A DNA stretch of 64,000 nucleotides from Nocardioides sp. S5. Its GTDB lineage: Bacteria; Actinomycetota; Actinomycetes; Propionibacteriales; Nocardioidaceae. Where the stretch lies: the NCBI RefSeq assembly GCF_017310035.1, contig NZ_CP022296.1, positions 434,001-498,000 on the forward strand, read 5' to 3'. Under the pieces are notes generated by a model, which saw nothing but the letters and a program-made list of their open reading frames with translations, was not told the DNA's origin and searched no databases. Below are positions 36,506 through 53,004 of the stretch, piece by piece (position 1 is the stretch's first letter; every line of letters begins with the position of its first letter). A program made the position numbers and the translations under genes.

Positions 36506-36515
36506 GGGGAGGATG

Positions 36516-36532
36516 GTTCCATCCAGCGGAAC
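36516..36532. promoter_or_regulatory. GTTC-N9-GAAC operator, site A
   Basis: GTTCCATCCAGCGGAAC; the arms extend to 6 bp (GGTTCC/GGAACC). It lies in the divergent gap between IclR 1 and the hydratase, 43-59 nt upstream of the hydratase start. Confidence 0.65.
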
Positions 36533-36574
36533 CGATTGCTAGGACGCCGTCCGCCGGACCTCCACGATGGCGAC

Positions 36575-38348: not shown

Positions 38349-39385
38349 GCAGTCCCCACGCGACCACGGAGCTCTACATCCAGGACGTCACGCTGCGTGA
38401 CGGCATGCACGCGATCCGACACCGGATCGACCCCGCAGACGTCAAGCGGATCGTGACCGCCCTCGACGACGCCGGGGTCGATGCGATCGAGGTCACCCAC
38501 GGTGACGGCCTCGGCGGGGGATCCCTCAACTACGGTCCGGGGTCGCACACCGACTGGGAGTGGATCGAGGCCGCCGCGTCGGTCATCCAGAACGCCACCC
38601 TCACCTCCTTGCTGGTCCCCGGCATCGGCACCGTCGAGCACCTCAGGGAGGCCTACTCGCTGGGCGTCCGGTCGGTGCGGGTGGCCACTCACTGCACCGA
38701 GGCAGACGTCGCCAAGCAGCACATCGAGACTGCTCGCGAGATCGGCATGGACGTGTCGGGGTTCTTGATGATGTCCCACATGTCGCCGGCTGCCGACCTG
38801 GCGAAGCAGGCCGGGCTGATGGAGTCCTACGGGGCGCACTGCGTCTACGTCACCGACTCGGGAGGCCGCCTGACCATGGACGGCGTCCGGGAGCGGGTGC
38901 GCGCCTATCGCGACGTCCTCGACCCCGGCACCCAGATCGGCATCCACGCACACGAGAACCTCTCGCTCTCGGTCGCCAACTCGGTCGTCGCCGTCGAGGA
39001 GGGCGTCTACCGCGTCGACGCCTCGCTCGCAGGGCAGGGCGCCGGTGCGGGCAACTGTCCGATCGAGCCGTTCGTGGCCGTCGCCGACCTGCAGGGCTGG
39101 AACCACCGCTGCGACGTCTTCAAGCTCCAAGACGCCGCCGACGACATCGTCCGCCCGCTCCAGGACCGGCCGGTGCGAGTCGATCGCGAGACCCTCACGC
39201 TCGGCTACGCCGGTGTCTACTCCTCGTTCCTGCGGCACGCCGAGAACGCCGCCAGGGACTACGGCGTGGACACGCGCGACCTGCTCGTCGAGGTCGGCAA
39301 GCGCCGGCTCGTCGGAGGGCAGGAGGACATGCTGGTCGACATCGCGCTCGATCTCCTGCGAGCACGTGACGTCGCGACCGCCTGA
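38345..39385 (+). CDS. dmpG: 4-hydroxy-2-oxovalerate aldolase
   Basis: 346-aa class II aldolase (HMG-CoA lyase-like TIM barrel) that cleaves 4-hydroxy-2-oxovalerate to pyruvate and acetaldehyde. Motifs: [14 protein letters not shown] (R-D catalytic pair), [14 protein letters not shown], and metal-binding [14 protein letters not shown]. It is the last gene of the plus-strand operon and forms a complex with DmpF. It ends exactly against the convergent Rieske gene, whose stop codon is at the next base. Confidence 0.93.
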
Positions 39386-39772
39386 TCAGTCCTGACGAGC
39401 CTGCGCCAGCAGCCACTCCCTCATCGACTGGGGCGCGGCAGGCGCAGGGAGCAGCGCCTCCACCCAGCCGTCGACGACGCGGGTGGGATAGACCGTGGCA
39501 CCGCGATCCGGCAGGTCGGTCCGAGCGCCCGACGGCAGCTCGAAGCGCCAGAAGTGGCCCGGGCAGATCAACGTCCTGTCCCGTACGACGCCGCCCGACA
39601 GCGCGATGTCGCGATGCGGGCAGCGATCGAGCAGGGCGACAAGCTCGCCGTCGCTCGTCGCCACGACGCACACGCGGTCCCGGTCCTGCCCGGAGCTCCC
39701 CACCACCTTGCCCACCGGTGTGTCGGGAGTGGCTTCCTCGACGCGGCACACCCGCTCCCAGGCCGCGGTCAC
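39386..39772 (-). CDS. Small Rieske [2Fe-2S] protein
   Basis: 128-aa Rieske ferredoxin-like protein. The cluster ligands are CPHRDIALSG (C51, H53) and LICPGHFWRFELPSG (C70, H73). It has no oxygenase domain, so it is either the ferredoxin of an oxygenase or a separate redox carrier. It begins with GTG overlapping the stop of IclR 2 (GTGA) and is last of a three-gene minus-strand unit. The main oxygenase reductase at 49573 has its own plant-type cluster, so this carrier's partner is uncertain. Confidence 0.8.
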   Translation of the reverse strand: MTAAWERVCRVEEATPDTPVGKVVGSSGQDRDRVCVVATSDGELVALLDRCPHRDIALSGGVVRDRTLICPGHFWRFELPSGARTDLPDRGATVYPTRVVDGWVEALLPAPAAPQSMREWLLAQARQD

Positions 39773-40548
39773 GGCTGCCACCCCAGGCCCGCCGAGATCC
39801 GAGTTGCTGTCTCCGTGACCGCCCGCACCAGGTGTGGAAGGCCGGCTGCCTCGTCCGCGACGTGCTCGGCCACCGACACGGACGCGACGACCCGGCCCAG
39901 CGGATCGCGGATCGGCGCCGCGATCGAGCACATGCCCGGCTGGGACTCGCCGCGGTTCTCGGCGAAGCCCTGGCGCCGGACCAGTGAGAGCTCCGAAAGG
40001 AGCAGCGGGCGCGACGTGATCGTGCGCGGGGTCCGTGGAACGAGGCGCATGCCTGCGACGAGTGGCTGCAGCTGGTCGTCCGGCAGGTAGGCCAGCAGGA
40101 CCTTGCCGCTCGAGGTCAGGTAGGCAGCGTTGCGCGCGCCGACAGAGCGGAAGACCGGGATGGCGCCGCGGCCCTCTCGACGCTCCACGTAGAGCACGTC
40201 GACGCCGTCGAGGATCGCGACGTGCAGCGTGCCGGGGGTGTGGTGGCGGAGGTTGTCGAGCGGGAGTGTGGCCGCCTCGTGCAGGCGCTGTGCGGTCTCG
40301 GCGCTGGCTCCCAGTGTCCGCATCACCGAGGTGAGACGGAAGAGACCGGTCTCCTCGACCTTCTCGAGCAGTCCCTCTTCCACGAGCGTCCAGATGATGC
40401 GGTGGGCCGTGCTCTTGCCCACGCCGACGCTGCGAGCGAGCTGGCTGACACCCAGCTGGGTGCTGTGCTTGCCGAACTCGCGCAGGATCCGCGAGGCCGT
40501 CGCCACGCTCGAGAGTCGTTCGGCGCCTGCCGGGACGGGGGAGGTCAT
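39769..40548 (-). CDS. IclR-family regulator 2
   Basis: 259-aa IclR regulator. Helix-turn-helix LGVSQLARSVGVGKSTAHRIIWTLVEEG, effector domain with LHVAILDGVDVLYVERREG, YLTSSGKVLLAYL and a C-terminal SVSVAEHVADE. It lies in an operon between an unrecognised gene upstream (4-bp overlap) and the Rieske protein. Together with site B in the divergent promoter at 41239-41255 it is the best-placed candidate to control the dioxygenase/dikinase operon. Confidence 0.85.
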   Translation of the reverse strand: MTSPVPAGAERLSSVATASRILREFGKHSTQLGVSQLARSVGVGKSTAHRIIWTLVEEGLLEKVEETGLFRLTSVMRTLGASAETAQRLHEAATLPLDNLRHHTPGTLHVAILDGVDVLYVERREGRGAIPVFRSVGARNAAYLTSSGKVLLAYLPDDQLQPLVAGMRLVPRTPRTITSRPLLLSELSLVRRQGFAENRGESQPGMCSIAAPIRDPLGRVVASVSVAEHVADEAAGLPHLVRAVTETATRISAGLGWQP

Positions 40549-41231
40549 CGAGTCGAGTCCCGCAGGACTGCGCCGAGGCTGGCGGCAGCCGGTGCGCCGG
40601 ACTCTGCACTGACGCGCCCGGAGGTGAGGTCGGCAGCAAGCAGGGCAGCCGCACGGTCCAGACCGAGGCGCGCGCAGATGCCGAGCTCGTCGACCACCGC
40701 GCGCTGACGAGGCAGGGCGCGCCGGATGCGCTCGAGGTCGCGGCCGAGCTGGGAGTGCTGGTTGGCCAGGGCCACCCCCGAGTGGGACGCATGGTGGCCA
40801 CTGAGGCCGCCGCCGATCGCGACGGTGAGGTGGTAGACGGTGTCGCTGATCCCCAGCACCCGGCGTACGACGTCGGGTGAGTCCTCCTCGATGAGCCCCA
40901 GCTCGGGCAGCACCGACGGGTCGTAGAACCGCACGCGCCAGCGCACCCCCAGGTGCTCGTCGACCAGCTCGACCTCCGGACCGGAGGGCGCGGGGAGCGG
41001 GTCCGTCGTGGCCACCAGGTGCAGACGATGGGCCGCCGCAGCGACGACGGTGAGGTCGCCGGCCGCGACCAGGGGGAGGCCCCCGCGCTCGCTCGGAGGG
41101 AGGTGCTGGACGTGATCGAGATAGGTCGTGTGCACGGCCCGGACATAGTCGCGGACCAGCTCGCGCATCGTCGCGGGGTCGTTCGAGGACTCGTTCACGT
41201 GATCAGGATGACTGCTGGTGACGAGCGCCAC
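40545..41231 (-). CDS. Unrecognised 228-aa protein in the IclR 2 operon
   Basis: I do not recognise this family. The protein is soluble, with a middle segment RWRVRFYDPSVLPELGLIEED and a histidine-rich stretch GGGLSGHHASHSGVALANQH followed by a helical C-terminus. It heads the minus-strand unit divergent from the catechol dioxygenase operon, and its stop overlaps IclR 2. GTG 41231 is the longest start; GTG 41198 (VNESSNDPA) is an alternative. Site B lies 8-24 bp upstream of the longer start. The histidines could bind a metal, but this is only a possibility. Confidence 0.6.
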   Translation of the reverse strand: MALVTSSHPDHVNESSNDPATMRELVRDYVRAVHTTYLDHVQHLPPSERGGLPLVAAGDLTVVAAAAHRLHLVATTDPLPAPSGPEVELVDEHLGVRWRVRFYDPSVLPELGLIEEDSPDVVRRVLGISDTVYHLTVAIGGGLSGHHASHSGVALANQHSQLGRDLERIRRALPRQRAVVDELGICARLGLDRAAALLAADLTSGRVSAESGAPAAASLGAVLRDSTR

Positions 41232-41296: not shown

Positions 41297-42379
41297 ATGA
41301 CGGATGTGAACGGGGTCACACCCCACGTGGACCTGGCTGAGGGGACCCCGGCCGGCGCGACGCGGATCATGGCGCCCGACGCCCCTCCCGACGGTCAGCG
41401 GTTCGACCCCTCGGACACGCGTCAGGCCACCCGGAGCACGGTCACCGGTCCGCCGCGCGGCATCCTGCGGTTGGGTCACGTGGACGTGACGGTCACCGAC
41501 ATCGACCTCGCGACCGCCTACTACACGGGCGTGATGGGGATGGAGGTGACCGCCCGCACCGAGGACTCGGTCTACCTCAAGTGCTGGGACGAGGAGGACC
41601 ACCACTCGCTGCGGCTGCGCTACGCCCCGCGGGTGGGCATGGACCTGATGTCGTTCAAGGTCCATCACGAGGACGACCTGGCCGACCTGGAGAAGAAGGT
41701 GTCCCGCTTCGGGTTCCCGGTCGAGCGGCTCAGCAAGGGCGAGACGCTCGGCCAGGGCGAGTCGATCCGCTTCTCGACGCCGAGCGGACACGTCATGGAG
41801 CTCGTCGCCGACGTCGAGAAGGTCGGCACGTCTCGTCGCCGTGAGCCGATGGCGCCCGAGCCGAGCGACCTCGGCCGGATGGTGCGCGACCAGATCGCTC
41901 CGCCGCGGATGGACCACATGCTCATCACGGCCGAGGAGGTGGGGGACTCCACGCAGTTCTTCATGGACGTCCTCGGCTTCCGCATCACCGAGCAGCTCCT
42001 CGACGGCAACGGCCACCAGCTCGGCACGTGGCTCGAGCGCTCACACTCGCCCCACGACCTCGCCATCGTGCACGGCACCAACGGCGGGCTGCACCACTTC
42101 GCCTACTGGCTCGACGAGTGGGACGACGTCCGGGACGCGGCCGACATCCTGGCCTACAACGGCATCCAGCTCGACGTCGGTCCCACCCGTCACGGCATCA
42201 CCCGCGGCTCCACCATCTACTTCTTCGACCCGCTCGGCACCCGCAACGAGGTGTTCACCGGCGGCTACCGCCCCGACCCCGACTTCCCCACCCTGACCTG
42301 GACCGAGGACAACATCGGCCGAGCCGTCTTCTACTACGAGGGCGAGCTCAACGACCGCTTCATGAGAGTGCACACATGA
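41297..42379 (+). CDS. Catechol 2,3-dioxygenase-type extradiol dioxygenase 1
   Basis: 360-aa two-domain VOC-fold extradiol dioxygenase of the XylE (I.2) type with an N-terminal extension of about 55 residues. Fe(II) ligands: histidine in PPRMDHMLITAEE, histidine in GGLHHFAYW, glutamate in GTRNEVFTGG. TRHGITRGSTIYFFDPLG is the family signature. It cleaves a catechol to a 2-hydroxymuconic semialdehyde. It is first of a nine-gene operon and is followed by a paralogue with a 4-bp overlap. Confidence 0.88.
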   Translation: MTDVNGVTPHVDLAEGTPAGATRIMAPDAPPDGQRFDPSDTRQATRSTVTGPPRGILRLGHVDVTVTDIDLATAYYTGVMGMEVTARTEDSVYLKCWDEEDHHSLRLRYAPRVGMDLMSFKVHHEDDLADLEKKVSRFGFPVERLSKGETLGQGESIRFSTPSGHVMELVADVEKVGTSRRREPMAPEPSDLGRMVRDQIAPPRMDHMLITAEEVGDSTQFFMDVLGFRITEQLLDGNGHQLGTWLERSHSPHDLAIVHGTNGGLHHFAYWLDEWDDVRDAADILAYNGIQLDVGPTRHGITRGSTIYFFDPLGTRNEVFTGGYRPDPDFPTLTWTEDNIGRAVFYYEGELNDRFMRVHT

Positions 42380-43287
42380 GCATCCTGCGACTTTCCCACG
42401 TGGAGATCCGAGTTCCCGACCTGGAGCTCGCCACGGCCTACTACTCCGAAGTGGTGGGGATGATCGAGACCGGGCGCGACGCCTCCCGCGTCTTCCTCAA
42501 GTGCTGGGACGAGCACCAGCACCACAGCGTCGTGCTCACCCTCGAGCCCACGCACGGCCTCAACCACTTCGGCTTCAAGGTGACCGACGCCGGCGACCTC
42601 GACGAGTACCAGGCACGCCTCGAGGCTGCCGGAGTGCCAGTCCGGCGTTACGCCGCCGACGAGTGGGCGCCGGGTCACGGGACGTCGATCCGGTTCACGC
42701 TGCCCAGCGGTCACGACATGGAGCTCGTCTACGGCATGCAGCAGGTGGGAAATCTGCTCCCGCAGACCAACCCTCCCCCGCGGCCGATGGGTCTCGTCGG
42801 CATCGCGCCACCCCGGGTCGACCACCTCTTCCTCACCGCCGAGGAGGTCGACACCAACACGCGGTTCCTCGTCGAGCACCTCGACTTCCGCCTGACCGAG
42901 CAGGTCATGGGTGACGACGGCTTCCAGATCGCCAGCTGGCTCGAGGTCTCGCACCGCTCGCACGACATCGCGTTCATCACCGGCCCCAACGGCGGCCTGC
43001 ACCACTTCGCCTTCTGGGTGGACGGGTGGAACGACCTGCGCAATGCCGCGGACACCTGCGTCTACCACGGCGTCAGCATCGAGACGAACCCCACGCGGCA
43101 CGGAGTGACCAGGGGCCAGTGCCTCTACTTCTTCGACCCGCTCGGCAACCGCAACGAGATGTTCACCGGCGGCTACTGGGTGGACCCCGGTGCCGAGCCG
43201 ATCACATGGACCGAGGCCGAGATGGGCCGTGCGATGTTCTACTACGACGGCGTCGTCAACCAGCAGTTCCTCACGGTCCACAGCTGA
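42376..43287 (+). CDS. Catechol 2,3-dioxygenase-type extradiol dioxygenase 2
   Basis: 303-aa XylE-like extradiol dioxygenase of the classical length (XylE 307 aa). Fe(II) ligands are expected at H150 (RVDHLFLTAEE), H209 or H210 (GGLHHFAFW) and E261 (NRNEMFTGG); TRHGVTRGQCLYFFDPLG is the signature. It is about as similar to dioxygenase 1 as to XylE by eye. Two successive enzymes suggest different catechol preferences, or that one acts on a substituted ring. The start overlaps the upstream stop (ATGA). Confidence 0.9.
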   Translation: MSILRLSHVEIRVPDLELATAYYSEVVGMIETGRDASRVFLKCWDEHQHHSVVLTLEPTHGLNHFGFKVTDAGDLDEYQARLEAAGVPVRRYAADEWAPGHGTSIRFTLPSGHDMELVYGMQQVGNLLPQTNPPPRPMGLVGIAPPRVDHLFLTAEEVDTNTRFLVEHLDFRLTEQVMGDDGFQIASWLEVSHRSHDIAFITGPNGGLHHFAFWVDGWNDLRNAADTCVYHGVSIETNPTRHGVTRGQCLYFFDPLGNRNEMFTGGYWVDPGAEPITWTEAEMGRAMFYYDGVVNQQFLTVHS

Positions 43288-43295
43288 GGCCGGCG

Positions 43296-44345
43296 ATGAC
43301 CATCGACGAGCACCAGAGCCCCGCGAACCTGCCGCGGACCGAGCGTCCCGACGCTCCTGCCTACCTCAACCGTCACCTCGCCCGGCGCTCGGAGACCCCC
43401 CGTGAGGTGGGTGAGCCCGACGAGTCCGTCCCGCTCTACCTCCGCCAGCACCGCGGGCGCGACCAGCGCAGCGACGCGGTCATGTACGACGGAAACGTCG
43501 TCGGGACGTCGCGGGCATGGGCCGAGGTGACCCGCACCAAGGAGATCATCCCGGAGCGCCGCGAGCAGCTGGGCACGATCGACTGCGACATCTACCTCGT
43601 GCGGCACGGAGAGACGCAAGGCTATTCCTCCGAGTCCGGCCTGACCCCTCTCGGCTCGTGGCAGGCCCACCGCCGCGGCCAGGAGCTCGCCCGACGCGTC
43701 ACTGACGGGATGAAGGTCGAGCTGCTGTGCGCGCCGACCAACCGCGCGCGGCAGACGGCCGAGCACATGAGGCGCGGGCTCGTCGACAACATCGGGCTCT
43801 TCGGCCGCGGCGAGCCCGAGGTCAGCGAGATCCACGACGACACCAACTTCCGCAACTTCGAGGTCGCCACCCCCGAAGGTCCCCGGGACGTCACCAGCGC
43901 CTTCCGCATCTACCAGCGTCAGATGGAGAAGTACGAGCGGCTCGGCCTCGGTGAACGCCCCGGCTGGCTGGTCGACATGGACCGCTTCTGGGGCGTGCAG
44001 AAGGGCGGAGGCGACCCCATCACCCAGTGGCTGACGATGCCGATGCTCCACTTCGAACCACCGGTCTCGTGCGTACGCCGGTTCTGGCGCGGCATCCTCA
44101 CCGTGCGCGCCGCGACCTCGGCCCAGACGGTCGTCGTCGCCACCCACTCGGGCCCCATCCGTGCCTTCGCGGCCATGGCGATGGGCTACGACCCCGGCGA
44201 GCCCTTCAACACCGAGTTCGTCCGCGTCCGGCTCGTCGCCGGCGGCACGACCGCGCTCGTGCTCTACCGCAACCGGGTGCAGGAGGTCGTGGTCCCCGAC
44301 CTCGATGCCCTGCCGCCCAACTCCGACCCACGATTCCAGGAGTGA
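43296..44345 (+). CDS. Histidine-phosphatase (phosphoglycerate-mutase-like) protein
   Basis: 349-aa protein. The first 100 residues are an extension without a known domain (YLNRHLARRSETPREVGE). The phosphatase core begins IYLVRHGETQGYSSESGLTPLG (RHG with nucleophilic histidine), then LLCAPTNRARQTAEHM, and the second histidine in VVVATHSGPIRAFAAM. Size and context do not fit glycolysis. In this operon it could remove phosphate from an aryl-phosphate, before or after oxygenation; that is inference. 8 nt separate it from dioxygenase 2, and 5 nt from the dikinase ATP subunit. Confidence 0.85.
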   Translation: MTIDEHQSPANLPRTERPDAPAYLNRHLARRSETPREVGEPDESVPLYLRQHRGRDQRSDAVMYDGNVVGTSRAWAEVTRTKEIIPERREQLGTIDCDIYLVRHGETQGYSSESGLTPLGSWQAHRRGQELARRVTDGMKVELLCAPTNRARQTAEHMRRGLVDNIGLFGRGEPEVSEIHDDTNFRNFEVATPEGPRDVTSAFRIYQRQMEKYERLGLGERPGWLVDMDRFWGVQKGGGDPITQWLTMPMLHFEPPVSCVRRFWRGILTVRAATSAQTVVVATHSGPIRAFAAMAMGYDPGEPFNTEFVRVRLVAGGTTALVLYRNRVQEVVVPDLDALPPNSDPRFQE

Positions 44346-44350
44346 CTGAG

Positions 44351-45454
44351 ATGACCGAGTGCCCCAGTGCGATCGCCTTCGGCGCCCTCGCCAGCGAGTT
44401 CCACGCCCAGGTGGGCGGCAAGTGCGCCTCGCTCGGCGTGATGAGCCAGGCCGGGCTGCCCGTGCCGCCCGGCTTCGCCGTCACCACGCGGGTCTTCACC
44501 GACGCGCGTGCAGCCGCGGACACGATGTCGCAGATCAAGGACCTCCTCGCCGACCTCGACTCCTCCGACAACGTTGCCCTGGCACGTGCGGCGAGTCGGA
44601 CCCGGGACCTGATCCGCAGCTGGGAGCTGCCGGAGGAGCACGAGCGGGTCATCCGCGAGATGTACGCCGACCTCTGCACGCTGTGCGGGGTCGATGACGT
44701 TCCTGTCGCCGTCCGGTCCTCCGCGACCTCCGAGGACTCACCCGACGCCTCGTTCGCGGGCGAGCACGACACCTACCTCTGGGTCTGCGGCATCGAGGAG
44801 GTCCTGGAGAAGATCCGCGCCTGCTGGGCAAGCCTCTACACCGACCGAGCCATCGTCTACCGCCATGAGATGGGCTACGACCACGCCGACGTCGACATGG
44901 CTGTCGCGGTCCAGAAGATGGTGCGCCCACGCACTGCAGGCGTGGCCTTCACGCTCGACCCGAGCAACGGGGACCGCTCGGGCATCTGCATCGATGCGGC
45001 CTGGGGGTTCGGCGAGGGAGTGGTGTCGGGTGACGTCACCCCGGACAACTTCCTCGTCGACAAGGTGATGTGGTCGATCAACCGGCGCATCATCAGCCCC
45101 AAGACCCATGCACACCTCCTGACCGACGGAGCCCCGGGCACGCACCCGACGGTGGAGCGCATCGAGCTGCCCGAGGACCAGGTCCTCGCGCCGTCCCTCA
45201 ATGACGAGGAAGTCCTTGCCATCGCCCGGCTGGCCCGGACCGCGGAGAAGCACTACGGCTTCGCACAGGACATCGAGTGGGCGGTGGACGACGACCTCCC
45301 CCCGGGCTCGGACATCGTCCTGCTCCAGGCACGTCCGGAGACCGTCTGGAGCAAGAAGCGACACACCGTCTCGGCCAAGACCGACCTGGTTTCGTCCATC
45401 GTCGACACCCTCGTCAACCCCCTCTACTCCCGCAAGGGCGCGCAGACCGCCTGA
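44351..45454 (+). CDS. PEP-synthase-like ATP-binding subunit (phenylphosphate-synthase beta-like)
   Basis: 367-aa protein made up only of the PPDK/PEP-synthase N-terminal ATP-binding domain: VGGKCASLGVMSQAGLPVPPGF, VAVRSSATSEDSPDASFAGE, AGVAFTLDPSNG, AWGFGEGVVSGDVTPDNF, and DIEWAVDDD ... ILLQARPETVW-type end. Phenylphosphate synthase protein 2 of Thauera is of similar size (about 40 kDa). It should bind ATP and pass a phosphoryl group to the histidine domain of the next gene. It has no histidine or PEP domain of its own, so it is not gluconeogenic PEP synthase. Confidence 0.85.
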   Translation: MTECPSAIAFGALASEFHAQVGGKCASLGVMSQAGLPVPPGFAVTTRVFTDARAAADTMSQIKDLLADLDSSDNVALARAASRTRDLIRSWELPEEHERVIREMYADLCTLCGVDDVPVAVRSSATSEDSPDASFAGEHDTYLWVCGIEEVLEKIRACWASLYTDRAIVYRHEMGYDHADVDMAVAVQKMVRPRTAGVAFTLDPSNGDRSGICIDAAWGFGEGVVSGDVTPDNFLVDKVMWSINRRIISPKTHAHLLTDGAPGTHPTVERIELPEDQVLAPSLNDEEVLAIARLARTAEKHYGFAQDIEWAVDDDLPPGSDIVLLQARPETVWSKKRHTVSAKTDLVSSIVDTLVNPLYSRKGAQTA

Positions 45455-45499
45455 CTCTCGGACTCCTCATCCGCATCACCGAACCGAAGGACCACGACC

Positions 45500-47311
45500 A
45501 TGGCCGACCGCTTTGCGAGCCCGTTCGAGATCGAGACACCTGACGGAGCCGAAGGCTGGCAAAGTCTCTACTCCTACTCCGCCGTCTTCTCCGAGGAGCG
45601 ACGCGACTACGAGGATGGCGGCTTCTGGTTCCACGACGGGGTCCACTGGTCCGAGGCCCTCACGCCCTGGGACGCCGGCGTGTTCGAGGTCGCGATCGCG
45701 TCCCTCGGCCAGTACAACACCCGCCACTACCTCGTCCCGCCGGCGTACGGCGTCGACTTCCGCCTCCTCAACGGCTACGTCTTCCTCAGCCCCGTGCCTG
45801 CTCCTGAAGCGGACATCGAAGGTCGGGTGCCGCACTTCATCGAGCGTGCCGGCTTCTACTTCGCCAACTGGGACCGTCTCTACGACGACTGGCTGGTCAA
45901 GGTCCGGTCCCTTGTCCAGCAGATGAGCGAGCTCGACTTCAGCCCGCTGCCGGAGATGGAGGACATGGACGTCATCACGTCCGGAGCCGGTCGCGGTTCG
46001 GGGGACCGGCTGCTCTCGACCTACCACCGACTGCTGGACAGTGTCGTCACGTTGTGGCAGCACCACTTCGAGTTCCTCAACCTCGGCTATGCGGCCTACC
46101 TCGACTTCTTCGGGTTCTGCAAGGCGGCGTTCCCGTCGATCCCTGACCTCGCCATCGCCAAGATGGTCGCGGGCGTCGACGTCGACCTCTTCAAGCCTGA
46201 CGATCACCTCAAGAGCCTCGCCAGGTTGGCCGTGAGCAGCGGCGTGGACGAGCGCTTCGATGGTGGGAGCCCGGAAGACGTGTGGGCGAAGCTGGCGACC
46301 GACGAACCGGGCCAGGCGTGGATCGCCGAGTGGGACAAGGCTGCGGAGCCGTGGTTCAACTTCTCCACCGGCTCCGGTTTCTACCACTCCGACAAGATCT
46401 GGATCCAGAACGTCGAGGTGCCCCTCGGCTACATCACCGACTACATCGTGAAGGTCCGTGAGGGCGTCGACCTCAACCGTCCGGTCGCTGCGCTCCACAA
46501 GGAGCGTGACCGGGTCGTCTCGGAGTACCGCGAGCTGCTCGACTCCGACGAGGACCGCGAGGTCTTCGACGCCAAGCTGGGGCTGTCGCGCACGGTCTTC
46601 CCCTACGTCGAGAACCACAACTTCTACGTCGAGCACTGGGCCCACTCGGTGATCTGGCGCAAGATGCGCGAGCTCGGAGGCGTGCTGAAGGGCGCCGGCT
46701 TCCTCGTCGAGGTCGATGACGTCTTCATGTTCCGTCGCTCCGAGCTCACGGACGTCCTCTTCGATCTCTATGCCGGTTGGGCCGTCGGGGCACCCTCCCG
46801 CGGCCCGGCCTACTGGCCGAAGGAGATCGAGCGTCGGCACGCAGTCCACGAGGCGCTCAAGGGCTGGTCGGCGCCGCCCGCTCTCGGGGTACCGCCCGAG
46901 GTGGTGACCGAGCCCTTCACGGTCATGCTGTGGGGCATCACCTCCGACTCCGTGTCGGCGTGGCTGAGCTCCGGCGACGGCGCGGAGGACGGGGTCCTCA
47001 GCGGCTTCGCCGCCTCTCCGGGCCTCGTCGAGGGGCCTGCCCGGGTCATCTCCTCTGCAGATCAGATCGGGGAGATCCAGGACGGCGAGATCCTGGTCGC
47101 GCCGCTCACCGCCCCCTCGTGGGCCCCTGTGTTCGGCAAGATCAAGGCCACCGTCACCGATGTCGGCGGGATGATGAGCCACGCCGCCATCGTGTGCCGC
47201 GAGTACGGCCTTCCCGCCGTCACCGGCACGGCCTTCGGCACCAAGACCATCACGACCGGACAGATGCTCCGCGTCGACGGCAACACCGGCAAGGTCACGA
47301 TCCTGGACTGA
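45500..47311 (+). CDS. Phenylphosphate-synthase alpha-like phosphotransferase
   Basis: 603-aa protein. The N-terminal 480 residues match, as I recall, the substrate part of phenylphosphate synthase protein 1 (about 70 kDa): GAEGWQSLYSYSAVFSE, FWFHDGVHWSEAL, HFIERAGFYFANW, HHFEFLNLGYAAYLDFFGF. The C-terminal swivelling PEP-utiliser domain reads VTDVGGMMSHAAIVCREYG, with phospho-carrier H561, then LPAVTGTAFGTKTITTGQ. The enzyme transfers the beta-phosphoryl of ATP to a phenolic hydroxyl. In Thauera this activates phenol for anaerobic carboxylation. Here no carboxylase is present; instead a Rieske oxygenase follows. 45 bp separate it from the ATP subunit. Confidence 0.85.
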   Translation: MADRFASPFEIETPDGAEGWQSLYSYSAVFSEERRDYEDGGFWFHDGVHWSEALTPWDAGVFEVAIASLGQYNTRHYLVPPAYGVDFRLLNGYVFLSPVPAPEADIEGRVPHFIERAGFYFANWDRLYDDWLVKVRSLVQQMSELDFSPLPEMEDMDVITSGAGRGSGDRLLSTYHRLLDSVVTLWQHHFEFLNLGYAAYLDFFGFCKAAFPSIPDLAIAKMVAGVDVDLFKPDDHLKSLARLAVSSGVDERFDGGSPEDVWAKLATDEPGQAWIAEWDKAAEPWFNFSTGSGFYHSDKIWIQNVEVPLGYITDYIVKVREGVDLNRPVAALHKERDRVVSEYRELLDSDEDREVFDAKLGLSRTVFPYVENHNFYVEHWAHSVIWRKMRELGGVLKGAGFLVEVDDVFMFRRSELTDVLFDLYAGWAVGAPSRGPAYWPKEIERRHAVHEALKGWSAPPALGVPPEVVTEPFTVMLWGITSDSVSAWLSSGDGAEDGVLSGFAASPGLVEGPARVISSADQIGEIQDGEILVAPLTAPSWAPVFGKIKATVTDVGGMMSHAAIVCREYGLPAVTGTAFGTKTITTGQMLRVDGNTGKVTILD

Positions 47312-47369
47312 GGCGCTTCGCCCAGTCCGGACACAGGCCACCAAGAACCACAGACGAGAAGGAACCTCC

Positions 47370-48626
47370 ATGCTGACTGTCGAGCAGAACGAAGAACTCA
47401 CCAGTGTCGGACCCGGCACGCCCATGGGCGAGCTGCTGCGCCGCTACTGGTACCCCATCGCGTTCGAGCAGGACTTCGACACACGGCCCAGCAAGACCGT
47501 GCGCCTGCTCGGCGAGAACTGGACGCTCTACAAGACCCCGTCGGGCAAGTACGGCATCATCGGCGAGGCCTGCCCGCACCGCCGGGCCTCCCTGACCTAC
47601 GGCATCGTCCACGAGGACGGCATCCGCTGTGGCTACCACGGCTGGAAGTACGACTTCGACGGTCAGTGCGTCGAGCAGCCGGCGGAGAACGACAACTCGA
47701 CGTTCCGCGACAAGATCAAGGCCAAGGCGGGTTCGGCCCAGACCCTCGGTGGGATGGTCTGGGTCTACGTCGGGCCCGCACCCGTGCCGGAGCTGCCGCG
47801 GTTCGACGTCTACGTCGAGGACGGCATCCGCGACATCGGGGTGGCCACCCTGCCCTGCAACTGGCTCCAGATCATGGAGAACTCCGTCGACCCGCACCAC
47901 GTGGAGTGGTTGCACGGCGCCTACTTCGAGTTCCTGGGTCAGACCCAGGGCTTCGAGGCGCCCAAGTCCTTCCAGAAGAAGCACATGAAGGTGTCCTTCG
48001 ACGAGTTCGAGTACGGCATCATCAAGCGCCGCGTGCTCGAGGGCCACACCGAGAGCGACGACGACTGGGCCATCGGCCACCCGATGATGTTTCCCTACGG
48101 CATGCGGGTGGGTGGGATGTTCATCGACCAGATGCAGATCCGCGTGCCGATCGACGACACCACGACGTGGAAGGTCTTCTACTCCCTCCACCACCCCGAT
48201 GGTGGCACGTGGGAGAAGCAGGAGCGCCCGGTCGTCTACAACTACGAGATCTTCGACGACAACGGAGACTTCGTGACCGACTACGTCGAGGGCCAGGACG
48301 TCATGGCGTGGGTCTCCCAGGGGGCGATCACGGACCGTTCCCAGGAGCACCTGGGTCGCTCGGACCAGGGCGTGGCGATGCTGCGCAAGATGTTCAAGGA
48401 AGCGATGGCCGACGTCGAGGACGGCCAGGACCCGCTGGGCGTGGTGCGCGAGAAGCACGAGATCATCCACCTGCCGTGCGAGAAGGACAAGTTCGGCGCC
48501 GGCACCGCCTTCACCGACCAGTGGATCAACGGCGGGTCGATGCGCTACAGCCCGATCCGCGAGCAGCTGCTCGCCCTGCACCGTGACGCAGCGACTGCCC
48601 GCGAGAGGGCTGGCTCAGGTGCGTGA
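47370..48626 (+). CDS. Rieske aromatic-ring oxygenase, phthalate-dioxygenase type
   Basis: 418-aa oxygenase subunit. The Rieske cluster is EACPHRRASL (C68, H70) and CGYHGWKYDF (C87, H90). The mononuclear iron site is NSVDPHHVEWLHG (bridging D174, H177, H182). The start MLTVEQNEELTSVGPGTPMG and the length put it in the phthalate 4,5-dioxygenase/phenoxybenzoate dioxygenase-like group, which works with a reductase of FMN-NAD-[2Fe-2S] type, encoded at 49573. I infer that it hydroxylates the ring of an aryl-phosphate or related phenolic. It lies 58 bp after the dikinase subunit. Confidence 0.92.
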   Translation: MLTVEQNEELTSVGPGTPMGELLRRYWYPIAFEQDFDTRPSKTVRLLGENWTLYKTPSGKYGIIGEACPHRRASLTYGIVHEDGIRCGYHGWKYDFDGQCVEQPAENDNSTFRDKIKAKAGSAQTLGGMVWVYVGPAPVPELPRFDVYVEDGIRDIGVATLPCNWLQIMENSVDPHHVEWLHGAYFEFLGQTQGFEAPKSFQKKHMKVSFDEFEYGIIKRRVLEGHTESDDDWAIGHPMMFPYGMRVGGMFIDQMQIRVPIDDTTTWKVFYSLHHPDGGTWEKQERPVVYNYEIFDDNGDFVTDYVEGQDVMAWVSQGAITDRSQEHLGRSDQGVAMLRKMFKEAMADVEDGQDPLGVVREKHEIIHLPCEKDKFGAGTAFTDQWINGGSMRYSPIREQLLALHRDAATARERAGSGA

Positions 48627-48915
48627 CCTCAGCGAGCAGGCGCGACGAGCGGCCCATCACGGGCCGATGCCGGACCTGCCTCCCGACCCGCACCGGCTCC
48701 CGCCCCCGGGCGACTGGTTCGCCTCCGACGCGGCCCACCACCTCCTGGACCGGCCGAAGTTCTGCCCGAGGTGCGCGGCCGCCCTCGACCGCGGGCTGGT
48801 CTCGGAGTGGTGGAGCGGAGGAGACCGGGTGTTCCTCACGTGGTGCGCGGAGTGTCACTGGACCGGCAACGTGGTCCTGTTCGACAAGGCCGTCATCGAG
48901 GAGCCTGAGCACTGA
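48619..48915 (+). CDS. Small zinc-ribbon protein
   Basis: 98-aa protein from GTG 48619, overlapping the oxygenase stop by 8 bp. The C-terminal half has two CxxC pairs, CPRCAAALDRGLV and WCAECHWTG, forming a zinc ribbon like that at the N-terminus of NudC-type enzymes. No other domain. Its job in the operon is unknown; a scaffold or accessory role for the dikinase or oxygenase is possible. ATG 48583 is an upstream alternative inside the oxygenase gene. Confidence 0.65.
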   Translation: MRDLSEQARRAAHHGPMPDLPPDPHRLPPPGDWFASDAAHHLLDRPKFCPRCAAALDRGLVSEWWSGGDRVFLTWCAECHWTGNVVLFDKAVIEEPEH

Positions 48916-49580
48916 TGACCGGCCCCGCCCTGGTGCTGGACTTCGGGGGACCGGTCCTGCTCACGCCCTTCGAGCTCGTCCGCGACGAGGTCGGAACTCC
49001 TGCGTGGTCGCTGCTGCACGAGCGCGGCCCTCTGGCCACTGCCGAGCGCCCGGACCCGGTGTGGGAAAGCCTTCAGGCAGGCAGGATCACCGAGCGCGAC
49101 TACTGGGACGAGCGCGCCGCGGAGTGGCACCAGTCGGGAGGCCACGGACCGGACATCAGGTCGATGATCGCGCACCTCTACGAACCGGCACGGCCGGCCC
49201 TGGTGCGTGAGCGCGCGCGGACACTCGTGCGTGATGCCCATGCCGCGGGCATGCAGGTCGGAATCCTCAGCAACGACCTCGGTCACTTCCACAAGGACGA
49301 GTGGATCGAGCAGATCGAGATCGTCGGCGACGTCGATGTCGTGGTCGACGGCTCCGTGGAGGGATATCTCAAGCCTCATCCACGGCTCTACGAGATGCTG
49401 TCCGAGCGCTTGGACGTGGCCTTCGCCGACATGGTCTTCCTCGACGACCAGACGACCAACATCCGGGGCGCCGAGGCACTGGGCATCCCGTCCGTCTGGT
49501 TCGACGTCACCGATCCGGACGAATCCTTTGCTGCCGTACGACACCTGCTGGGACTACCCACGGAGGACAACGATGGTTGA
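48915..49580 (+). CDS. HAD-superfamily hydrolase
   Basis: 221-aa HAD hydrolase. The usual DxDxT motif I is changed to LVLDFGGPVLLTP (D then G at the second aspartate position), as in epoxide-hydrolase N-terminal-type and YihX-type members that begin DFGGV. Motif II is VGILSNDLG, the lysine motif YLKPHPRLYEM, and motif IV VFLDDQTTNIRGAEALG. A phosphatase role is uncertain because the general-acid aspartate is lost. It starts in the stop of the zinc-ribbon gene and overlaps the reductase gene by 8 bp. Anaerobic phenylphosphate carboxylase also includes a HAD subunit, which makes its presence here notable. Confidence 0.8.
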   Translation: MTGPALVLDFGGPVLLTPFELVRDEVGTPAWSLLHERGPLATAERPDPVWESLQAGRITERDYWDERAAEWHQSGGHGPDIRSMIAHLYEPARPALVRERARTLVRDAHAAGMQVGILSNDLGHFHKDEWIEQIEIVGDVDVVVDGSVEGYLKPHPRLYEMLSERLDVAFADMVFLDDQTTNIRGAEALGIPSVWFDVTDPDESFAAVRHLLGLPTEDNDG

Positions 49581-50541
49581 GCAGCGCGAGGCCCGCGTCA
49601 CCCAGATGACATGGGAGGCCGACGGAGTGGTCTCGGTCCGTCTCGCCCGGATCGAGAGCAACGACCCGCTGCCGGCGTGGGAACCTGGTGCCCACATCGA
49701 CGTCTACGTGCCGGACGGCACCACCCGCCAGTACTCCCTCTGCGGCGACCCCGGCGACCTGTCGTCGTGGCAGTTCGCCGTCCTCCGGGAGCCGGAGGGC
49801 CGGGGCGGGTCGGCCTTCATCCACGACCAGCTGCGGGTCGGCGACCGGCTTCTGGTGACGAGACCGAAGCAGAGCTTTGCCCTCGAGGACGCCTCCTTCC
49901 ACGCCCTCGTCGCCGGAGGAGTCGGGATCACCCCGATGATGGCCATGGCCGAGGAGCTCGCCCGCACCGGACGACCGTTCCACCTGACCTACGGCGGGCG
50001 CACGCGCGCGTCGATGGCCTTCTGCCAACGCCTCGAGGCCCTGGGCGACCGGCTGACGCTCCTGGCCGAGGACACCGATGGCCGCGCCGACCTCGAAGCC
50101 GTCGTCCGCGACCTGCCCGAGGGTGGGCTGGTCTACGTGTGCGGGCCGGTCGGCCTGCTGCGGGCCGTGGAGGCTGCCGCTGAGGCCGTGCACGGCGCCG
50201 ACCAGGACATCGTCCGCTTCGAGCTGTTCAGCCGGGCCGGCGTGGAGCCGCAGGAGAGCGCTGCGCTCGATGCGGACAGCTACGAGCTGGTCCTGACAGA
50301 GTCGGGACACACTCTGCGGCTCGCGCCCGAGGCCAACATCCTCGAGGTCGTGCTTGCGCTGGGACTCGACGTGGAGAACGACTGCCGCGACGGGATCTGC
50401 GGTTCCTGCATCACGCCCATCCGGTCCGGCACGGCCGACCACCGCGACCTGGTCCTCACCAAGCGGGAGAAGGCCGCGATGGACAAGATGCTCATCTGCG
50501 TCTCGCGGCCGACCTGCGCCCGGCTCGAGCTCGAGCTCTGA
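49573..50541 (+). CDS. Oxygenase reductase, FNR-type with C-terminal [2Fe-2S]
   Basis: 322-aa phthalate-dioxygenase-reductase/VanB-like protein. Flavin domain RQYSLCGDPGDL, NAD domain ALVAGGVGITPMMAMAEEL and VYVCGPVGLLRAVE, and a C-terminal plant-type ferredoxin with DCRDGICGSCITPIRSG ... MLICVSRPT giving the four cysteines. It passes electrons from NAD(P)H to the Rieske oxygenase. It is the last gene of the plus-strand operon, ending 2 bp from the convergent aldehyde dehydrogenase. Confidence 0.92.
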   Translation: MVEQREARVTQMTWEADGVVSVRLARIESNDPLPAWEPGAHIDVYVPDGTTRQYSLCGDPGDLSSWQFAVLREPEGRGGSAFIHDQLRVGDRLLVTRPKQSFALEDASFHALVAGGVGITPMMAMAEELARTGRPFHLTYGGRTRASMAFCQRLEALGDRLTLLAEDTDGRADLEAVVRDLPEGGLVYVCGPVGLLRAVEAAAEAVHGADQDIVRFELFSRAGVEPQESAALDADSYELVLTESGHTLRLAPEANILEVVLALGLDVENDCRDGICGSCITPIRSGTADHRDLVLTKREKAAMDKMLICVSRPTCARLELEL

Positions 50542-50543
50542 GG

Positions 50544-52001
50544 TCAGCTCCCGGCTGGCTGGGCGTTGATCTGCATGACCACGGCCTTGGGCTCGGTGAA
50601 GAACTCCCGCGAGAAGTTGCCACCCTCGCGCCCCACGCCGGATGAACCGACGCCACCGAACGGTGCACGCAGGTCCCGGATGAAGAAGCAGTTGACCCAC
50701 ACCGTGCCGACCTGGAGTCGTGCGGACACCCGGTGGGCCGTGTGGAGGTTCTCGGTGAACACCTGGGCGTCGAGGCCGTAGTCGCTCTCGTTCGCCAGGG
50801 CGATGACCTCGTCCTCGGTGTCGAAGGGGTGGATGACGACCACCGGTCCGAAGATCTCCTCGGTCACGTGCGGGCTGTCCAGGGGCATGTCGACCAGGAC
50901 GGTGGGCTTGACCTGCCATCCCTCGCCGACGCCGCCGCTGAGGATGCGACCGCCCCACTGCCCCACGGCGTCGATGTAGCCCTTCACCTTGTGGAAGTGC
51001 TCCTCGGACGCCAACGGGCCGAAGTCGGTCTCGGTGTCGAGCGGGTCGCCGATACGCATCGCCTCGGCCGAAGCGACGAACTTCTCCAGGAACGCGTCCA
51101 GGATGGGGCGCTCGACGAAGAGCCGGCTGCCGGAGAGGCAGATCTGGCCGGCGTTGCGGAAGATCGACTGGATCGACCAGTGGACTGCATTGTCGAGCTC
51201 TGCATCGGCGAAGACGATGTTGCAGTTCTTGCCGCCCAGCTCGAGGGACACGGGCGTGAGGTTGGCGGACGCCGCACGGCTGATGATCTTTCCGGTTCCG
51301 GTCTCACCGGTGAAGGTGATCCGGTCGACGCGTGGGTCCTCGGTCAGCGCCGCACCCACGGAGTCCGCGCCATAGCCGTGCACGACGTTGAGCACCCCGG
51401 GGGGCAGGCCGGCCTCGAGGGCGAGCCGGGCCATGATGGTCGCACTGGTGGGGGTGTCCTCGGCCGGCTTGAGGACGACCGTGTTGCCCCAGGCAAGGGC
51501 GGGAGCGACCTTCCACGACTCCAGCATGAGCGGGAAGTTCCATGGCGCGATCGCCACCACGACGCCAGCGGCCTCGAAGCGCGTGTAGGCGTGGTGCCCG
51601 GTGTCCATCGGAAGTGCCTCGGCGGTGGCCATCTTCGCGTGGTCGGCGAAGAACCGGAAGTTCATCGCGGCGCGAGCCACGTCGTGGTGGCACTGGTTGA
51701 GGGGCTTGCCCATGTCCCGGGAGTCCGCGGCGGCCAGCTCGTCGGCACTGGCCTCCATCGCGTCGGCCAGGCGGTGCAGCAGCCCCTGTCGCTCGCCGTA
51801 CCCCATCCGTGGCCAGGGCCCCTCGTCGAACGCCTGGCGGGCAGCGGTGACCGCGGCCTCCGCATCGACCTTCGAGCCCAGCGCCACCTCGGCCCAGGCT
51901 TGGCGGGTCCACGGGTTGACGGTGTCGAAGCGGGCGCCGTCGAGGGAAGGAACCTCGGCACCGCCGATGACGTGTCCGAAGAACTCGGGGGTGGTGGTCA
52001 C
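50544..52001 (-). CDS. 2-hydroxymuconic semialdehyde dehydrogenase
   Basis: 485-aa NAD-dependent aldehyde dehydrogenase. Catalytic C288 in RNAGQICLSGSRLFVE and E254 in SLELGGKNCNIVF, with IAPWNFPLMLESWK and TFTGETGTGK for cofactor binding. Its place with the tautomerase and decarboxylase (4-bp overlap with the former) marks it as the dehydrogenase of the oxalocrotonate branch (DmpC/XylG role). It oxidises the ring-fission semialdehyde to 4-oxalocrotonate. A betaine-aldehyde or other ALDH role is possible by sequence but not by context. Confidence 0.87.
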   Translation of the reverse strand: MTTTPEFFGHVIGGAEVPSLDGARFDTVNPWTRQAWAEVALGSKVDAEAAVTAARQAFDEGPWPRMGYGERQGLLHRLADAMEASADELAAADSRDMGKPLNQCHHDVARAAMNFRFFADHAKMATAEALPMDTGHHAYTRFEAAGVVVAIAPWNFPLMLESWKVAPALAWGNTVVLKPAEDTPTSATIMARLALEAGLPPGVLNVVHGYGADSVGAALTEDPRVDRITFTGETGTGKIISRAASANLTPVSLELGGKNCNIVFADAELDNAVHWSIQSIFRNAGQICLSGSRLFVERPILDAFLEKFVASAEAMRIGDPLDTETDFGPLASEEHFHKVKGYIDAVGQWGGRILSGGVGEGWQVKPTVLVDMPLDSPHVTEEIFGPVVVIHPFDTEDEVIALANESDYGLDAQVFTENLHTAHRVSARLQVGTVWVNCFFIRDLRAPFGGVGSSGVGREGGNFSREFFTEPKAVVMQINAQPAGS

Positions 52002-52213
52002 GGGGTGATCCCTTCGGAAGGGGTGCCTCGGCGTTCGGCGACGGTGACGTCGCCGGCGGCCCAGTGGGTGGGTGGGACTTCGCGGATGACGACGCGGATG
52101 CTCTCGCGAGGAGCGTCGACAGTGGAGACCGCTGCTTCTGTGAGCGCGGTGATGAGGGCCCGGAGCTGGTCAGGGCTGCGGCCCTCGACCAGGGTCACGT
52201 CGATGAACGGCAT
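51998..52213 (-). CDS. 4-oxalocrotonate tautomerase
   Basis: 71-aa tautomerase starting MPFIDVTLVEGRSPDQL. After removal of Met, Pro1 is the catalytic base; Arg11 and Arg39 are in the expected positions, and Trp50 stands where Phe50 usually is. It converts 2-hydroxymuconate to 2-oxo-3-hexenedioate. The start at 52213 is required to place the catalytic proline; a longer frame from 52231 would bury it. It overlaps the decarboxylase stop by one base and the dehydrogenase start by 4 bp. Confidence 0.9.
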   Translation of the reverse strand: MPFIDVTLVEGRSPDQLRALITALTEAAVSTVDAPRESIRVVIREVPPTHWAAGDVTVAERRGTPSEGITP

Positions 52214-53004
52214 CAGTCGGGCCTTCCGCACTCGAGCGCCACGTCGCCGAGGTGGGCGAAGCGGCAGTTGACGGTGGACCCCGGGGTGGCGAACACCGCG
52301 TCGGACATGCCGCCGGTCAGCACGATCCAGCCGGCCTCGATCGCCGATCCGCGCGTGGCCAGGTCGTTGACGGCGAGGGCGAGTGCCTCCGCGGGGTGTC
52401 CGAGCACATCGGCACCGGTCGCTCGGTGCACGACGTCGCCGTCGACGACCACCTCGACCGCCTCGGCGGCCAGGTCGAGCTCGTCGTGGCGGACTGCGAC
52501 ATCGCCGATGAGGTAGGCGCCTGACGAGGCGTTGTCCGCGAGCACGTCTCCGACCGTGAACCTGAAGTCGCGGTAGCGGCTGTCGATCACCTCAGCGCCG
52601 CCGCGCACCTCGCCGACGGCCGCGAGGGCCTGGTCGGCGGTGACGCCGGGACCTTCGAGTCGCTCCTTCATCACGAAGACGATCTCGGGCTCGATGCGTG
52701 GATGGATCAACGCGTGCTGGGGAACCGGATCGCCGGCGCCGAGTGCCATGGCGTCCGTCAGCCAGGCCACCAGTGGCGTGTCGATCCCCATGCGCTGCTG
52801 CTTGGCGCGGCTGGTGAGACCCAGCTTGACCCCGGTGACCTTCTCGCCGCGCTCGAGCCGGCGGCGCAGGGTCTCGGCCTGGATCCGGTAGCCGGTCGCG
52901 ACGTCGAGATCGGGCCACTCGTCGGCGAAGGAGTCACGGTCGCGCCGCTCGGCCTCGCAGGCGAGCAGCTCGGTGGCGACGCTGTCCTCGGTCCATGTGG
53001 TCAT
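52213..53004 (-). CDS. dmpH: 4-oxalocrotonate decarboxylase (hydratase-family)
   Basis: 263-aa member of the hydratase/decarboxylase family: VATGYRIQAETLRRRLERGE, VTGVKLGLTSRAKQQRMGI, metal-binding RIEPEIVFVMKERL, AEVIDSRYRDFRF and DVLADNASSGAYLIG. It is separated from dmpE and coupled to the tautomerase, so I assign it as the decarboxylase producing 2-hydroxypentadienoate. It is first of the minus-strand operon; two GTTC-N9-GAAC sites lie in its divergent promoter region. Confidence 0.8.
   Translation of the reverse strand: MTTWTEDSVATELLACEAERRDRDSFADEWPDLDVATGYRIQAETLRRRLERGEKVTGVKLGLTSRAKQQRMGIDTPLVAWLTDAMALGAGDPVPQHALIHPRIEPEIVFVMKERLEGPGVTADQALAAVGEVRGGAEVIDSRYRDFRFTVGDVLADNASSGAYLIGDVAVRHDELDLAAEAVEVVVDGDVVHRATGADVLGHPAEALALAVNDLATRGSAIEAGWIVLTGGMSDAVFATPGSTVNCRFAHLGDVALECGRPD

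Follow-up and report, generated by a model that had tools for sequence, protein, structure and literature searches.

A putative aerobic phenol operon of Nocardioides sp. S5 that joins a two-component dikinase to a Rieske oxygenase and catechol meta-cleavage

Two-component dikinases that act on phenolic compounds are represented by PpsAB, CreHI and HpeHI. As described in passages of PMC12167813 and PMC9618137, CreHI starts the catabolism of p-cresol, which the former source treats as aerobic, and HpeHI, with a biotin carboxylase acting after it, constitutes a characterised aerobic pathway that begins with phosphorylation; an excerpt of PMC9549646 gives CreH, CreI, CreJ and CreD as the components of an alkylphenol oxidation system. 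Here we describe an operon from a 64,000-nucleotide stretch of Nocardioides sp. S5 (contig NZ_CP022296.1, positions 434,001 to 498,000; hereafter the window) in which a dikinase of this type is encoded together with a Rieske oxygenase, phosphatase-type proteins and two catechol 2,3-dioxygenases. The oxygenase of the Cre system, a cytochrome P450, oxidises an alkyl side chain, and reportedly acts on the phosphate ester.

The operon (41297–50541) comprises nine plus-strand open reading frames without internal stops, spaced by −8 to +58 bases (Table 1). It probably specifies aerobic phenol degradation by phosphorylation, Rieske-catalysed ring oxidation of the aryl phosphate, dephosphorylation and meta-cleavage of catechol. 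The dikinase would accept the β-phosphate of ATP on H561, a mechanism known for the family and assigned here by homology, and donate it to the hydroxyl group of a simple phenol, either phenol itself or a cresol, yielding aryl phosphate, AMP and phosphate. The Rieske oxygenase, presumably reduced by the FNR/[2Fe-2S] reductase (elsewhere perhaps by a Rieske ferredoxin and a flavin adenine dinucleotide reductase), would hydroxylate the aryl phosphate ortho to the ester, and the histidine phosphatase, perhaps with the HAD protein, would strip the phosphate to leave catechol. The two catechol 2,3-dioxygenases would then split the ring, and the flanking genes, on family support, would carry the product to pyruvate and acetyl-CoA.

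A first-pass annotation of the window had listed the same nine co-directional genes, with families that Pfam and NCBIfam confirmed for all but the 98-aa CxxC protein, and had proposed a phosphorylate-then-oxygenate route. The coupling of dikinase, Rieske oxygenase, phosphatase and catechol cleavage speaks for that route, as does the P450-linked clade being the nearest one; the accompanying suggestion that no aerobic pathway of this kind had been characterised was wrong, given the CreHI (p-cresol) and HpeHI–biotin carboxylase pathways in the passages cited above. The aerobic sequence of phosphorylation and oxygenation is already known; a Rieske enzyme in that slot, feeding meta-cleavage, seems to be new.

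The dikinase and its gene neighbourhood

The ATP-grasp and the substrate/swivel subunits are specified by separate adjoining genes (367 and 603 amino acids, aa; 45-base gap). According to a passage of PMC12167813 the carrier histidine of phenolic dikinases lies in the motif T/SxxGGxxxH. H561 of the 603-aa protein falls within TDVGGMMSH, which fits this motif, serine preceding the histidine as in PpsA and CreH, and T553, G556, G557 and H561 are invariant in a 15-row alignment. Homology to the Pps-, Cre- and carboxylase-linked dikinases is full-length and includes the substrate domain (residues 1–495), which is 51% identical to that of Cre-type L104, 45% to Pps-type L106 and 40% to carboxylase-linked L109. 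Judged by homology, on which the phosphorylation of phenol itself is also assigned, the split pair is a two-component phenolic dikinase of the PpsAB, CreHI and HpeHI type. In the PDB the 367-aa subunit best matches 9goj (252 bits), which is probably HpeI, to go by its length and a passage of PMC12167813.

Much of what the first-pass annotation said of the pair is borne out: H561 as phospho-carrier and the kinship with phenylphosphate synthase. The phenol-binding domain, whose absence would have spoken against its reading, is not missing, the substrate domain aligning at 45–51% identity with Pps- and Cre-type proteins. The carboxylase that it had reported missing is indeed absent, tblastn with one reference each for PpcA, biotin carboxylase and the Cre-type P450 (E 1e-10, at least 40% of the query) giving zero matches in the window. 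In the structural comparison that it had suggested, a low-confidence model of the 603-aa protein had its closest fold in rifampin phosphotransferase.

The identity values also bear on the nature of the substrate. Aniline might be phosphorylated to a phosphoramidate, from which the Rieske enzyme would produce catechol with loss of nitrogen, as with γ-glutamylanilide. Excerpts of PMC7500099 name aniline, and phenol as well, as substrates of Pas, a homologous dikinase from Desulfatiglans anilini, but put Pas-alpha at 26.7% identity to Pps-alpha, as against the 45–51% found here for the substrate domain. With no nitrogen gene recognised in the cassette either, we regard aniline as a very improbable substrate.

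Loci carrying the 603-aa family (the best 80 of 537 confirmed) were retrieved with flanks of up to 10 kb, and their neighbouring proteins were clustered and then tallied by tblastn, matches below 40% of the query length being discarded. A quick tree of 89 dikinase rows, from which matches under 1500 bases were excluded, places the window in a Rieske-linked clade of 68 rows (Shimodaira–Hasegawa-like approximate likelihood ratio test, SH-aLRT, 95). Nearest to it is a P450-linked clade of 12 rows (SH-aLRT 100; joining fork 86), and the UbiD/PpcA-linked and biotin-carboxylase-linked rows fall outside both. The record titles assign 61 of these 68 rows to Actinomycetota (Actinomycetes 29, Acidimicrobiia 23, Nitriliruptoria 2 and a further 7 without class); the remainder are two contigs labelled Acidobacteriota and five unassigned rows, the window included. 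Most of the 68 are metagenome bins.

The same gene set recurs in these genomes. A same-strand Rieske gene is found downstream in 57 of the 59 clade rows with at least 2.2 kb of downstream sequence, its start 1.5–3 kb from that of the dikinase (nine short-contig rows were dropped, five of them still with a Rieske match). Among testable clade loci the ATP-grasp gene adjoins the dikinase in 61 of 61, 49 of 57 have a histidine phosphatase gene upstream, and catechol 2,3-dioxygenase occurs in 45 of 54; two genes for it are present in 42 of 52 rows and three genes in a single row. Of the 34 clade loci with full flanks, 33 have a histidine phosphatase or HAD protein, 31 an extradiol dioxygenase, and none a relative of the P450, the biotin carboxylase, PpcA or the HD-domain proteins. 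Two far dikinase copies (L054b and L100b) fall outside the clade and were left out of these counts. The dikinase–Rieske linkage is not due to chance, and by sequence comparison the dikinase, the Rieske oxygenase, a phosphatase-type protein and the catechol 2,3-dioxygenases are a conserved unit. Residues R103, H104, E106, R150 and H284 of the histidine phosphatase are invariant across 51 rows, and H150, H209 and E261 of catechol 2,3-dioxygenase B (best PDB match 5znh, with 1mpy third) across 47.

The phosphatase counts help to weigh a different course for the oxygenation, in which the Rieske enzyme adds dioxygen across C1 and C2 of the ester, phosphate is lost spontaneously to give catechol, and the phosphatase serves only in recycling or protection. 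Such spontaneous loss parallels the dioxygenation of glutamyl-anilide or the angular dioxygenation of carbazole, and angular dioxygenation does occur in alpha-only Rieske enzymes. No cis-diol dehydrogenase was seen among the nine genes or the scanned flanking proteins, and four loci (L038, L052, L053 and L057) gave zero histidine phosphatase matches, both of which suit this course. However, enzymatic dephosphorylation accords better with the upstream phosphatase of 49 of 57 loci and with the histidine phosphatase or HAD protein present in 33 of 34, and the same four loci carry a gene of the short-chain dehydrogenase/reductase (SDR) family which could serve other chemistry. We consider C1/C2 dioxygenation rather unlikely.

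These four loci have a variant layout, with SDR and HAD genes near the dikinase and Rieske genes, an FNR gene in three, and no adjoining catechol 2,3-dioxygenase pair. Second dikinase genes are located close to the Rieske operon in L116 (12091–13905), L100 and L054; in L054 a catechol 2,3-dioxygenase pair and the far dikinase are separated by a 546-aa protein that matches Meth_synt_2 weakly. Three other loci (L073, L078 and L090) have dikinases 58–60% identical, near UbiD/PpcA-like proteins (29–32% to PpcA), and possibly represent a further dikinase branch; two also have SDR and aldehyde dehydrogenase genes, the contigs being labelled Deltaproteobacteria and Chloroflexi.

The Rieske oxygenase and its probable substrate

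Residues C68, H70, C87, H90, H177, H182, D310 and D174 are invariant in 61 of 61 Rieske proteins, and we take them to be the CxH...CxxH cluster ligands, the 2-His-1-Asp iron site and the bridging Asp. The nearest solved relatives are phthalate-dioxygenase-like, with 7fjl the best PDB match. In phthalate dioxygenase the substrate is anchored by S182, R207 and R244, according to a passage of PMC10511449. Because the 7fjl sequence carries S, R and R at 182, 207 and 244, it is probably a phthalate dioxygenase and not a demethylase. In the 61 Rieske proteins these anchors align with V178, A or M (T once) at 197 and I/V235; because all three are replaced, the operon enzyme has probably lost phthalate recognition, and its substrate is probably not phthalate.

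The C-terminal part of the protein matches LigXa_C and VanA_C, which are named after O-demethylases, LigXa presumably being one. Guaiacol or another o-alkoxyphenol might be phosphorylated and the ester O-demethylated by the Rieske enzyme, before the phosphatase and catechol 2,3-dioxygenase act. HpeHI does phosphorylate methoxyphenols such as acetovanillone and vanillin, in a passage of PMC12167813. Against O-demethylation, which we hold to be unlikely, stand the probable identity of 7fjl and the fact that no formaldehyde-handling gene was recognised in the scanned neighbour clusters, though no search was dedicated to such genes.

The occurrence of the Rieske protein was also assessed in two genome samples. 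In 145 genomes it is present (E ≤1e-60) in eight, the genome of the window included, and the dikinase directly adjoins it in all eight; one further genome (G094) encodes a dikinase at 54% identity but lacks a Rieske protein at that threshold. In 396 Actinomycetota genomes it is present in 15, again counting the window's own, at an identity of at least 57% in 12 and of 44–49% in three. Eleven of the 12 have the dikinase adjoining, and the other (G402) has both on separate contigs, its Rieske match beginning 31 bases from a contig end. In both samples Rieske proteins of at least 57% identity occur only in dikinase-bearing genomes. Taken from the other side, dikinase matches at E 1e-100 occur in 23 of the 396 genomes; in 11 the match is near full-length and at least 60% identical, and all 11 have the Rieske protein, as does only G271 among the other 12. 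A 260-residue dikinase stretch at 60% occurs in G461, which has no Rieske protein. At the G271 locus (L115, G271:C12:1-4557) a 48% dikinase comes after the genes for catechol 2,3-dioxygenase, histidine phosphatase and the Rieske protein, an order which differs from that of the other loci, and the contig ends before the position where an ATP-grasp gene could appear. Because this locus pairs the same genes with a distant dikinase in another order, the association may have originated, or been reassembled, on more than one occasion.

This distribution bears on the proposal that the dikinase and phosphatase merely trap or buffer phenol in the cell, while the Rieske enzyme hydroxylates the free compound. 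A scavenging role for phosphorylation is suggested in a passage of PMC12167813. A phosphatase in the same operon would permit such a cycle, but the restriction of the Rieske protein, at 57% identity or more, to genomes with the dikinase makes a trap quite unlikely. The reported action of the Cre P450 on the phosphate ester also argues against a trap.

Pairwise dikinase distances correlate with those of catechol 2,3-dioxygenase B (r = 0.87), the Rieske protein (0.86), the phosphatase (0.83), the ATP-grasp subunit (0.80) and the IclR protein (0.76), and to a lower degree with those of acetaldehyde dehydrogenase (0.62) and aldolase (0.52); none of 500 permutations attained any observed value. We treat the correlations as supporting evidence only, because a degree of correlation follows from shared ancestry alone and the last two values are blurred by paralogues.

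A number of observations weigh against phosphorylation-first degradation with a phosphate-ester oxygenase. Clade members L086 and L077 have no Rieske gene, the latter having a diiron hydroxylase of the Phenol_Hydrox type nearby; in L100 the dikinase and Rieske genes are separated by an IclR gene on the opposite strand; eight of the 57 testable loci have no upstream histidine phosphatase; and the Rieske frame is broken in L044 and contains a TGA in G172, defects which are errors or decay. Although H205, K219, R220, R221, D232, H237 and R258 are clade-specific invariant polar residues, the first four, H237 and R258 are only candidates for phosphate binding. The three Rieske relatives at 44–49% gave no dikinase match at E 1e-100 in the 396 genomes, and one of them (L113) adjoins an extradiol dioxygenase relative, so that phosphorylation is not a requirement throughout the wider Rieske family. 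Among the flanking proteins, the semialdehyde dehydrogenase, decarboxylase, hydratase and hydrolase are under NCBIfam cut-offs, though related models score best. We retain phosphorylation followed by ortho-hydroxylation of the ester as the reading of the operon; the alternatives, in descending order of likelihood, are C1/C2 dioxygenation, guaiacyl O-demethylation, the phenol trap and the aniline phosphoramidate.

Flanking genes and host genome

The rest of a meta-cleavage pathway flanks the operon, together with two IclR regulators and a Rieske ferredoxin (Table 1). The catechol 2,3-dioxygenases, the acetaldehyde dehydrogenase and the aldolase exceed the curated cut-offs of TIGR03211, TIGR03215 and TIGR03217.

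Table 1. Genes of the operon (first nine rows) and of its flanks, with positions in the window
Feature	Position	Strand	Support or remark
Catechol 2,3-dioxygenase A (XylE type), N-terminal extension, 360 aa	41297..42379	+	TIGR03211 365.5 bits, cut-off 320.2; frame intact
Catechol 2,3-dioxygenase B, 303 aa	42376..43287	+	TIGR03211 366.6 bits, cut-off 320.2
Histidine phosphatase branch 1, 349 aa; proposed aryl-phosphate phosphatase	43296..44345	+	His_Phos_1 PF00300 57.1 bits
Dikinase ATP-grasp subunit (HpeI/CreI/PpsB-like), 367 aa	44351..45454	+	PPDK_N PF01326 354.9 bits
Dikinase substrate-plus-swivel subunit (HpeH/CreH/PpsA-like), 603 aa, carrier H561	45500..47311	+	C-terminal PEP-utilizers swivel domain; NF006150 854.7 bits, cut-off 650
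Rieske oxygenase alpha subunit, phthalate-dioxygenase-like, 418 aa; proposed aryl-phosphate oxygenase	47370..48626	+	PF00355, PF19301
Small CxxC...CxxC zinc-ribbon-like protein, 98 aa	48619..48915	+	directly 3' of Rieske gene
HAD-family hydrolase, 221 aa; possible second phosphatase	48915..49580	+	PF00702 49.9 bits
FNR/[2Fe-2S] reductase of Rieske oxygenase, 322 aa	49573..50541	+	NAD_binding_1 PF00175, Fer2 PF00111
2-Oxopent-4-enoate hydratase-like; frame start too long, domain from about residue 150	36143..37369	+	PF01557; NF008461 301 bits, below cut-off 350
Acylating acetaldehyde dehydrogenase	37374..38348	+	TIGR03215 453.3 bits, cut-off 282.25
4-Hydroxy-2-oxovalerate aldolase	38345..39385	+	TIGR03217 557.4 bits, cut-off 286
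Rieske-type ferredoxin	39386..39718	-	PF00355 48.9 bits
IclR-type regulator	39769..40548	-	TIGR02431 150.4 bits, below cut-off 284.75
Conserved protein u228, divergent from operon, beside IclR gene	40545..41231	-	without known family
Aldehyde dehydrogenase, probably 2-hydroxymuconic semialdehyde dehydrogenase	50544..52001	-	best TIGR03216 509.9 bits, below cut-off 693.25
4-Oxalocrotonate tautomerase-like	51998..52231	-	PF01361 69.8 bits
4-Oxalocrotonate decarboxylase-like, start assumed	52213..53004	-	TIGR03218 239.3 bits, below cut-off 350.55
Meta-cleavage-product hydrolase-like alpha/beta hydrolase	53160..53978	+	PF00561; HsaD/BphD models below cut-off

Two small proteins deserve mention. 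The 98-aa CxxC protein has zero family matches in Pfam and NCBIfam, and belongs to a cluster of 20 members among the neighbour proteins, the window's included. Protein u228 is present in 32 of 81 loci (window included) and has a histidine-rich motif, GLTxHHAxHxGxGLANxHA; its model is confident (predicted local distance difference test score 91.5) and has no good PDB match. It is possibly a sensor or metal protein of the phenol pathway.

The three phenol-hydroxylase families searched for, PF02332, PF11794 and PF07976, gave zero matches in the Nocardioides sp. S5 genome; the absence of PF02332 is the weaker result, as the model matched no control genome, yet it detects the L077 protein. On balance we lean towards a broader proposal: these would be the first Rieske oxygenases with phosphate esters as natural substrates, the phosphate being an ATP-paid handle or activator for ring hydroxylation, and the route would replace classical phenol hydroxylases in the Nocardioides, Acidimicrobiia and relatives which carry it, phenol-hydroxylase absence referring to the window's own genome only.

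Comparison with known systems

Searches of open-licence papers aimed at this point yielded no description of a Rieske oxygenase as a dikinase partner. Should the proposal be correct, the range of the dikinase module would extend from carboxylases and a P450 to Rieske oxygenases, Rieske chemistry would gain a new substrate class, and it would be seen how operon-bearing actinobacteria may use phenols. Why such pathways begin with phosphorylation is called unclear in a passage of PMC12167813; a ring oxygenase requiring the phosphate ester would open that question to direct test, and phosphate-directed ring hydroxylation would serve biocatalysis.

The PpsAB/PpcABCD system has a dikinase homologous along its length (49% to that of Azoarcus sp. 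KH32C), but is anaerobic and has a carboxylase in place of the oxygenase, and PpcA-like matches are absent from the window as from the full-flank clade loci. Hpe/Acv (HpeHI, HpeCBA, HpeD) shares an aerobic two-component phenolic dikinase, its probable HpeI structure being the one matched by the 367-aa subunit; it differs in its biotin carboxylase (likewise without a match in the window or those 34 loci), its CoA steps and its gene order, H then I, and the carboxylase-linked relatives are 45–48% identical.

In aniline degradation (AtdA/TdnQT) ATP-driven glutamylation is followed by Rieske dioxygenation. ATP-driven tagging ahead of a Rieske oxygenase and meta-cleavage is common to that system and the operon, whereas the tag there is glutamate on an amine, the ligase is glutamine-synthetase-like and the oxygenase is of another type. 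Phthalate dioxygenase (7fjl) and the LigXa-type enzymes belong to the same family of Rieske alpha subunits; unlike them, the operon enzyme does not keep the phthalate anchors and, at 57% identity or above, is confined to genomes with the dikinase.

The Cre pathway of Corynebacterium glutamicum (CreHI, P450 CreJ and CreD) shares a homologous two-component dikinase, aerobic operation and an oxygenase gene beside the dikinase, and loci of Cre layout (L092–L098, L101–L105) form the clade nearest to the Rieske-linked one. Two of these, L104 (a Rhodococcus ruber plasmid) and L105 (R. oxybenzonivorans pRB98), have the Cre-type P450/dikinase cluster adjoining a toluene-4-monooxygenase cluster, which suggests conversion of toluene to p-cresol and on to the aryl phosphate from one plasmid. 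Cre has a P450, which adjoins the dikinase there and is without a match in the window or the 34 full-flank clade loci, HD-domain proteins, an SDR and an aldehyde dehydrogenase; the Nocardioides operon has a Rieske oxygenase, a histidine phosphatase and catechol 2,3-dioxygenases instead. Overall, its pathway would resemble that of Cre, a Rieske enzyme acting on the ring taking the place of a P450 acting on the side chain.

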